Shown here one piece after another: positions 27,289 to 30,216 of a DNA stretch of 64,000 bases (positions are counted from its first letter, which is position 1; each line of letters begins with the position of its first letter). Position numbers and translations under genes: made by a program. The notes under the pieces are model-generated. The model saw nothing but the letters and a program-made list of their open reading frames with translations. It was not told where the DNA came from and ran no database searches. The DNA lies in NCBI GenBank assembly GCA_022749815.1, contig JAKIWV010000001.1:1-64000 (forward strand), read 5' to 3'. This DNA comes from Thermoplasmata archaeon (lineage in GTDB: Archaea > Thermoplasmatota > Thermoplasmata > Lutacidiplasmatales > UBA184).

Positions 27289-28128
27289 ATGAAGGTGGTG
27301 ATCCCGGCCGCCGGGTTGGGGGCAAGGTTCCTCCCGGCGACGAAGAGCATGCCAAAGGAAATGCTGCCGGTCCTGGACCGGCCGATCATACAATACGTCG
27401 TGGAGGAGGCCGTCGCCGCCGGCGCGGATGACATCATGATCATCACCGGTCGGAACAAGCGAGCGATCGAGGACCAGTTCGATTACCATCCCGAGTTCGG
27501 CGACCACCCCGCCTTGAGGGCCCTCGACGTGCTCACCCAGCAGGCGGATCTGTTCTTCGTGCGGCAGCGGCGCCCTCGTGGACTGGGTGACGCCGTGGTC
27601 TGTGCGGCGCGTCACGTCGGCCGGGAGCCGTTTGGGGTGCTTCTGGGGGACACCATTCACCTCTGCCGCGTTCCCCTCATGCGACAACTGCACGACCGCT
27701 TCGTGGAACTGGGATCCCACTCCAGCGTCATTGCGGTTGAGCGGGTCTCCGATTCGAAGGTCTCCGACTACGGAATTGTGGCGGGGGAGGAGGTTCGGCC
27801 CGGGGTGATAGACGTTCGGAGCGCCATCGAGAAACCTACCCTGGCAGAGGCCCCGAGCCGTTTCGGGATCACGGGCGCCTATTGGCTGACCCCCACTGTG
27901 TTTGATTGCATCCGGAGGACGGCTCCCGGACGGAATGGCGAGATCCATCTGACCGATGCCCTGACACTCCTCCTCCAGCAAGAGCACGTCTACGCGGTGA
28001 CCTTCGAAGGTACCCGGTACGACATCGGAGACCCGCTGCTCTGGTTGAGGGCCAACATTGAATTCGCCCTTCGAAACCCCCAGCTTCGCGATCAAGTCCT
28101 CGCATTGCTCCGCTCCGAGGCCGCATGA
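27289..28128 (+). CDS. galU: UTP-glucose-1-phosphate uridylyltransferase
   Basis: The 279-residue product begins MKVVIPAAGLGARFLPATKSMPKEMLPVLDRP, the GalU signature with the Lys-rich activation loop, and has LLGDTIH for the catalytic Asp region and YDIGDPLLWLRANIEFAL at the end. It makes UDP-glucose from UTP and glucose-1-phosphate in the cytoplasm. The ATG at 27289 is chosen over the TTG two codons earlier. A TATA-like box about 28 bases upstream suggests a leaderless mRNA. It is the first gene of an operon with a UDP-glucuronate decarboxylase and a truncated UDP-glucose dehydrogenase, so the pathway aims at UDP-xylose. Confidence 0.95.
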   Translation: MKVVIPAAGLGARFLPATKSMPKEMLPVLDRPIIQYVVEEAVAAGADDIMIITGRNKRAIEDQFDYHPEFGDHPALRALDVLTQQADLFFVRQRRPRGLGDAVVCAARHVGREPFGVLLGDTIHLCRVPLMRQLHDRFVELGSHSSVIAVERVSDSKVSDYGIVAGEEVRPGVIDVRSAIEKPTLAEAPSRFGITGAYWLTPTVFDCIRRTAPGRNGEIHLTDALTLLLQQEHVYAVTFEGTRYDIGDPLLWLRANIEFALRNPQLRDQVLALLRSEAA

Positions 28129-29132
28129 GCCGGAGGGCCCTCATCTCCGGCGCGGCGGGATTTCTCGGTTCCCACCTGGTCGACCGTCTCCTACAGGATG
28201 GTTGGCACGTTGTCGGAGTGGACAATCTCTCGAGTGGCCGCTTGCTGAACCTGAAGGGGGCTCGCGAGAGGCCGGAGTTCCGCTTCCTCCGGGCGGATCT
28301 ACGGAGGCCGGTTCGCCTTCCGAGCGCGGATGTCATCTTCCATCTGGCTTCCCCCGCCTCGCCTCCCCAGTACCAAATGGACCCCATCGGTACATTGGAA
28401 GTCAACGGATTCGGCACGAGCCAACTCCTGGCCAACGCGCGCCGCGATTCCTCGCGGTTCGTCCTCGCGTCGACGTCCGAAGTCTATGGAGATCCCCAGG
28501 TCCATCCTCAACCGGAGGAGTACTGGGGGCATGTCAATCCGATCGGTCTCCGGTCCTGTTACGACGAGGGCAAGAGATTCGCCGAGGCGCTCGCAACGGC
28601 GTGGCACCGCCAGCGGGGGGTAGACGTCCGCATCGCTCGCATCTTCAACACGTATGGTCCTCGAATGGCGCTGGACGACGGCCGCGTAATCTCGACATTT
28701 CTCGGACAAGGGTGGAAGGGCGACCCGATCACAGTGCAAGGCCGAGGCCGGCAGACGAGGTCGTTCTGCTACGTGGATGACCTGGTGGATGGCCTCGTCC
28801 GCATCGCCGAGGTCCCTCCGATAGACGGACCCGTGAACCTGGGGGACCCACGGGGTGAGCTCTCGGTACTCCGCCTCGCTCAACTCGTCCGGGAGATGAC
28901 CGGTGGCCGATCACAGATCGTATTTGTGCCGCGCCCCCCGGACGACTCCGAACAACGACGACCGAACATTCGACGTGCCCGAAGGCTCCTCCACTGGGCC
29001 CCGACGACCTCACTTCCCCAGGGTCTCCAGCGCACCGCCAACGCGGTCGCGCGAGAACTGCAGGAACGAGGCCTCGGACGCGGAAGGACGAATCCATCCA
29101 GGAAGACGCCACGACGGAAAGGGATCCGATGA
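28125..29132 (+). CDS. UDP-glucuronate decarboxylase (UDP-xylose synthase)
   Basis: The 335-residue product has ALISGAAGFLGSHLVDRLL and then an almost unbroken set of UXS blocks: HLASPASPPQYQMDPIGTLE, STSEVYGDPQVHPQ, YWGHVNPIGLRSCYDEGKR with the catalytic Tyr and Lys, ARIFNTYGPRMALDDGRVIS and GRQTRSFCYVDDLVDGL. This family oxidises and decarboxylates UDP-glucuronate to UDP-xylose. It is joined to galU by an ATGA overlap, and its own stop overlaps the start of the ugd stub. The enzyme that makes its substrate, UDP-glucose dehydrogenase, is broken here, so a second copy elsewhere would be needed. The C-terminal 20 residues are basic and unusual. Confidence 0.93.
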   Translation: MSRRALISGAAGFLGSHLVDRLLQDGWHVVGVDNLSSGRLLNLKGARERPEFRFLRADLRRPVRLPSADVIFHLASPASPPQYQMDPIGTLEVNGFGTSQLLANARRDSSRFVLASTSEVYGDPQVHPQPEEYWGHVNPIGLRSCYDEGKRFAEALATAWHRQRGVDVRIARIFNTYGPRMALDDGRVISTFLGQGWKGDPITVQGRGRQTRSFCYVDDLVDGLVRIAEVPPIDGPVNLGDPRGELSVLRLAQLVREMTGGRSQIVFVPRPPDDSEQRRPNIRRARRLLHWAPTTSLPQGLQRTANAVARELQERGLGRGRTNPSRKTPRRKGIR

Positions 29133-29329
29133 TCGCGCGCAGCAACGCGTCACCGCGGCTGAGGATCGGCATCGTGGGGGTGGGTCACGGCGGGCGGGCC
29201 ACCGGACTCGCCTTCGCAGCGCACGGAAGGTACGTTGTCGGGTTCGATACAGATCCGGACCTGCGCGCCTCAATAACGGTTCCCTCAATAGATCAAGCGG
29301 CGAGTCAGGGGTCGGGTGCTCCGGCGTGA
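29129..29329 (+). pseudogene. Truncated UDP-glucose dehydrogenase (N-terminal stub)
   Basis: Only 66 codons remain. LRIGIVGVGHGGRATGLAFA and then YVVGFDTDPDLRASI match the NAD-binding start of UDP-glucose/GDP-mannose dehydrogenases, including GxGxxG and the acidic end of strand two. Family members have about 430 residues; here the reading frame ends 15 residues after the match in unrelated sequence. No later fragment (catalytic Cys or C-terminal domain) is visible before the next gene, so a large deletion or replacement is likely. The start overlaps the decarboxylase stop as ATGA and its TGA overlaps a GTG of the next GT2 gene. Confidence 0.8.
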
Positions 29330-30216
29330 CTCCTCGCCTTCCCCCGCCCCCCACGCAGGGCGTGACCGAGACCTCCTTATCCCACCGCTTCCTCGGGAAC
29401 GAGCCGGGGGGAGAGGCCGATCGACTCGAGAAACCTGTGATTCGCGAGGGACCCGGGAATCCCCTCGAAGACGTCACCCTCGTCATTCCTAGCCGTAACG
29501 AGGCGGGCGCTATCGCGCAGGTGGTACGCGAATGGTGGGGTTCACGGCCCCCGGGGATCAAGACAGAGATTCTCGTTGTCGACGATGGGAGCACCGATGC
29601 CACCCCGGAAATCCTCCGTGAACTGCAACGGGAGATCCCGCTCCGGGTAGTGCGGAACACCCGCTCCCTGGGGTACGGCGAATCTCTCAAGATCGGCGTA
29701 CGGCAGACCCGGACCCCCTGGGTAGCCTTCACAGACGGGGATGGACAGTACGACCCTAGGGATCTTCCGACGTTACTGAATCTAGTGCGAATCGGCAATG
29801 ACATGGCCATCGGGATCCGCACACCGCGGCAGGACCCCTTCCTGCGGAAGGTCGTCTCACGCGTCTTCCGCTTGTTCCTCTCCGTCTTCTTCGTGCTGCG
29901 CGCCCAGGACCCGACGGTAGCCCTCCGGGTCGGTCGGACGGAGGTCGTACGATTCATCTCCGAGCAGACCCGGTACATGAACGGGGCTTTCCTGAACGAG
30001 TTCATGGTGCGCTTGGACCAGGGCGGGTATCGTTACGCCGAAGCACCGATCCGGCATCGCGCTCGTCGGTGGGGAGAGAGTAAGAACGTGCCCCACTGGC
30101 TTCTGCCGAAAGTGTCAGTGCAGCAGATCATCGCGCTCGTTCGTCTGTGGCGGGAATTCCATCGTCTCGGAGTGGACAGATCGGCCTCCGCCCCTCTCTC
30201 CACCGAGAGCCCGTAG
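29326..30216 (+). CDS. GT2 glycosyltransferase, dolichyl-phosphate sugar synthase-like
   Basis: The GT2 domain begins VTLVIPSRNEAGAIAQVV, followed by VVDDGSTDATPE and AFTDGDGQYDPRDLPTLL, the DPM1/PMT2-like FxDxDGQ block, and IRHRARRWGES near the C terminus. It should transfer a sugar to polyprenyl phosphate at the cytoplasmic face. It parallels the gene at 22071; DPTVALRVGR stands where that one has DMDCGFRIVRR. Two starts are possible: GTG 29326, coupled by GTGA to the truncated dehydrogenase, or GTG 29362; both leave about 30-45 residues before the domain. It closes the galU operon. Confidence 0.86.
   Translation: MTPRLPPPPTQGVTETSLSHRFLGNEPGGEADRLEKPVIREGPGNPLEDVTLVIPSRNEAGAIAQVVREWWGSRPPGIKTEILVVDDGSTDATPEILRELQREIPLRVVRNTRSLGYGESLKIGVRQTRTPWVAFTDGDGQYDPRDLPTLLNLVRIGNDMAIGIRTPRQDPFLRKVVSRVFRLFLSVFFVLRAQDPTVALRVGRTEVVRFISEQTRYMNGAFLNEFMVRLDQGGYRYAEAPIRHRARRWGESKNVPHWLLPKVSVQQIIALVRLWREFHRLGVDRSASAPLSTESP

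Follow-up and report, generated by a model that had tools for sequence, protein, structure and literature searches.

The 66-codon open reading frame (ORF) that follows galU and uxs in the 64-kb stretch of archaeal DNA analysed here (the window) is very probably what remains, as a pseudogene, of the UDP-glucose dehydrogenase gene (ugd) that belonged to this operon, the loss of which would have been tolerated because a second, intact Ugd rendered it redundant. The ancestor of the genus carried the order galU-uxs-ugd-GT2, as evidenced by genome G005, and a deletion of about 1.2 kb in the present lineage, as deduced from comparison, would have taken out everything in ugd beyond about codon 49, together with part of the adjoining spacer, thereby fusing the start of ugd to the GT2 leader. 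An ugd belonging to another clade is present about 52 kb away, paired with a second galU, and may cover the lost step; the likely working route would then run from GalU via the distant Ugd to the operon Uxs, furnishing UDP-xylose for the surrounding glycosyltransferases. Judged from the gene complement, the UDP-xylose pathway is probably still complete, and the case is one of ordinary redundant gene loss, of low surprise. The features concerned are listed in Table 1.

Table 1. Features of the galU-uxs operon, its ugd stub and the second ugd locus (window positions, except for the last line).
Feature	Position	Strand	Remarks
galU (UTP-glucose-1-phosphate uridylyltransferase)	27289..28128	+	intact; operon gene 1; PF00483 E 4e-26
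uxs (UDP-glucuronate decarboxylase / UDP-xylose synthase)	28125..29132	+	intact; human UXS1 match
Truncated ugd ORF, 66 codons	29129..29329	+	PF03721 18.4 bits over 32 residues (cut-off of 27 bits not reached); family Ugd profile 28.1 bits
Part homologous to the Ugd N-terminus (NAD-binding loop)	29147..29275	+	~40 residues; G005 Ugd match
CCTCAATA direct repeat	29268..29290 (copies 29268-29275, 29283-29290)	+	sits where Ugd homology ends
Junction DNA without detectable ugd 3' remnant	29276..29436	+
GT2-family glycosyltransferase ORF	29326..30216	+	PF00535 E 7e-25; conserved part from about 29461
Second, full-length Ugd	C1:81382-82923	minus	adjoins second galU; about 52 kb from stub

The genome is archaeal, the archaeal model for small-subunit rRNA having scored best over its full length. 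The galU, uxs and 66-codon ORFs lie head to tail on the same strand, joined by ATGA overlaps and followed by the GT2 gene. The first-pass annotation had regarded galU and the decarboxylase gene as intact and coupled, which is borne out by the domain match of the former, by the overlap of the two at 28125-28128, and by the similarity of the latter to human UXS1 in a phmmer search (2b69, E 5e-99 over residues 3-317; 2b69/4gll, E about 1e-99). Uxs is assigned to the UXS family by its full-length match to solved UXS1 together with the YxxxK motif (SCYDEGKR), and the NTYGPRM motif is likewise seen in its translation. The operon galU scored 289 bits against TIGR01099, which is under the equivalog cut-off, and its orthologues in relatives are 60-71% identical.

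The third ORF had been read as a truncated ugd, rightly so, as it matches over residues 11-49 a family profile built from 27 Ugds of the archaeal family (E about 4e-11), while residues 6-48 of the G005 Ugd were aligned to 29147-29275 with 51% identity in a whole-genome search (E 9e-8). The recognisable part is closer to 40 residues than to the 50 or so first estimated, and the description of ugd as the middle enzyme holds for the enzymatic step, not for the gene, which is third in the operon. With the ORF stopping after 66 codons, the stub is devoid of the central domain and of the UDP-binding domain with the catalytic Cys and Lys, and a PF00984 search returned no match at the stub locus. Its NAD loop reads GVGHGGRA, as against G[LM]G[YHF][VM]G[LVIM] followed by A or T in the 27 full-length Ugds, with changes at three columns (L/M to V, V/M to G, and L/V/I/M to R) of which the residue class is kept in 27/27. 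These substitutions, at the few sites that could be sampled, suggest decay or relaxed constraint in the stub, and hence that the loss predates the assembly; the reading frame being open through all 66 codons counts against a pseudogene relic.

The same substitutions bear on the possibility that misassembly has dropped the rest of ugd from the sequence, the true genome having an intact galU-uxs-ugd-GT2 order. The junction is seen in the assembly alone, one of five contigs and 93% completeness, but such substitutions would be unexpected if the gene were intact, the junction DNA at 29276-29436 resembles neither the ugd of G005 nor the spacer behind it, and the central domain of ugd is found elsewhere in the genome only in the second copy. 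Misassembly is accordingly rated as very improbable. Of the deletion in strain or assembly envisaged in the first-pass annotation, it is the deletion in the lineage that the gene order of G005 favours.

Close uxs genes were detected in 29 of the 103 genomes of the family. The order galU-uxs-ugd occurs in genera g1-g4, g6 and g7 and in G098, amounting to 15 operons with ugd besides that of the present genome (G000); ugd is full-length in 13 of these 15 type-A operons, and in the other two (G028 and G021) it is cut by the contig end. The operons of genus g5 have the order uxs-ugd-galU. Comparison of the junction in relatives revealed that G005, a member of the same genus, carries orthologues of all four genes as galU-uxs-ugd-GT2, with a full ugd between uxs and GT2, on a contig that begins inside galU; an intact orthologue thus occupies the syntenic place of the stub, as expected of a pseudogene formed by deletion. 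The DNA alignment of G005 with the window breaks within the stub and picks up again at the GT2 core. Given this order and the presence of ugd in fourteen further operons of the family, the lineage leading to this genome appears to have lost about 1.2 kb of ugd, a size read from the G005 comparison. The same-family galU-uxs-ugd operons (e.g., C57 of G005 and C120 of G030) are alike in gene order, in their Uxs (61-71% identical, 71% for G005), and in many instances in the 4-nt uxs/ugd overlap, but differ from the present operon in having a full-length ugd.

The groupings of the galU tree do not track operon type, and galU was therefore left out of dating the event. The operon galU clusters with the galU of the genus g5 uxs-ugd-galU operons (support 0.995) and the operon uxs with those of the type-A operons, a discordance that possibly reflects gene mixing between operon types. 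Close uxs genes without ugd were also noted elsewhere: besides an intact galU-uxs-ugd operon, G023 has a second galU-uxs pair lacking ugd (C40; L063 4630-9716), behind which lie transposase-like ORFs and one that resembles a reverse transcriptase, and in genus g5 the available DNA downstream of uxs holds no ugd in G089 (L151 2518-3570) and G106 (L158 and L159), the loci of G106, not that of G089, being near contig ends.

At the junction itself, the end of Ugd homology at 29275 coincides exactly with one copy of CCTCAATA, which has just two occurrences in the window, both at this place; that the repeat is the scar of a deletion by slippage is plausible but unproven. No ugd 3' remnant was found between the stub and GT2 in any frame, the match to the Ugd C-terminus staying within the level of dinucleotide shuffles (fraction 0.13); the second breakpoint is not fixed by any such remnant, a point that weighs against the deletion reading.

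The position of the stub between its neighbours raises the alternative that it serves as a translation bridge (or encodes a small protein): translation of the stub, coupled to uxs at one end and to the beginning of GT2 at the other, would keep GT2 expressed. Its frame is intact, it shares ATGA with the uxs stop at 29129-29132, and its own stop lies in the GTGA present at 29326-29329, where GTG 29326 has the strongest Shine-Dalgarno-like pairing among the GT2 start candidates (-8.1 kcal/mol). The 4-nt uxs/ugd overlap is, however, an ordinary arrangement in the family, being found in many relatives with an intact ugd, so the upstream overlap is inherited, and pairing of this strength is reached by 8% of GTGs drawn at random from the window. 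The GT2 of G005, moreover, starts about 10 residues ahead of the conserved core, past an 80-base spacer, which corresponds here to the other candidate, GTG 29437; this orthologue is 62% identical from residue 46 on, and the first 36 residues of GT2 in its long form are unmatched in G005. The stub had been said to overlap both neighbours: this stands for uxs, while it is uncertain for GT2, as the GTGA amounts to a true overlap of genes only with a GT2 start at 29326. The evidence leans against the bridge, which is considered unlikely, and it is rather doubtful that the relic has been retained as a translated coupling element linking uxs to GT2, with the start and stop of a dead gene serving as a regulatory leader.

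A second ugd elsewhere, one of the options raised by the first-pass annotation, was indeed recovered by the genome search that it had called for, the PF03721 hit on contig C1 being the sole full-length Ugd in the whole genome. Displaced ugd pieces were sought genome-wide with PF03721, PF00984 and the G005 Ugd, yielding only this copy and the stub, the latter with the G005 Ugd. The second Ugd possesses all three domains and conforms to NPEFL.EG, KY..NA and GPGFGGSCF.KD (as NPEFLAEG, KYSANA and GPGFGGSCFEKD); its closest solved structure is the UDP-glucose dehydrogenase 3vtf (E 2e-88), and it scores above the cut-off of TIGR03026, with the AglM and TuaD equivalogs matched below theirs. From its sequence it is predicted to oxidise UDP-glucose, and would be expressed and work in vivo. 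Loss of the UDP-xylose pathway in this lineage, with uxs on its way out, would be in keeping with the disappearance of the operon's own substrate-making enzyme, but it is most improbable and the recent loss proposed earlier is not supported, since both uxs (its motifs conserved, and as close to that of G005 as given above) and the full-length second Ugd are intact.

In the Ugd tree, the second copy groups with G002 (0.97) and then with the operon Ugds of genus g5 (full support), apart from those of the type-A operons. Among the 40 genomes searched, the type-A relatives that bear uxs each have one Ugd only, the operonic one, and this genome alone combines a type-A operon with an Ugd of the other clade. 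The arrangement matches pseudogenisation under redundancy, in which a paralogue or xenologue covers the step: a relic in place, a copy of another clade elsewhere, and a pathway otherwise intact. There is no essential difference from redundancy-driven gene loss, the two copies here stemming from two operon types. It provides a clear local example of a redundant nucleotide-sugar gene removed from its operon while a copy of another lineage would keep the pathway whole, and a caution that the UDP-xylose pathway would be wrongly predicted as broken if judged by operon context alone. No paper on this arrangement was found in a literature search, and in a contig search aimed at named close relatives the only matches were to distant bacteria (47-56% identity).

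The second Ugd and its galU retain the ugd-galU order of the genus g5 uxs-ugd-galU operons, but unlike these, the pair has no adjacent uxs either here or in G002. Two complete cassettes with reciprocal loss would make an attractive scheme; a uxs remnant sought upstream of the pair in both genomes gave no credible match, leaving that scheme unsupported on the uxs side. The second ugd-galU pair is flanked by large, secreted-looking phosphoesterase-like ORFs (G000 C1:73815-83567; L048, L001), one of which carries many carboxypeptidase-like repeats.
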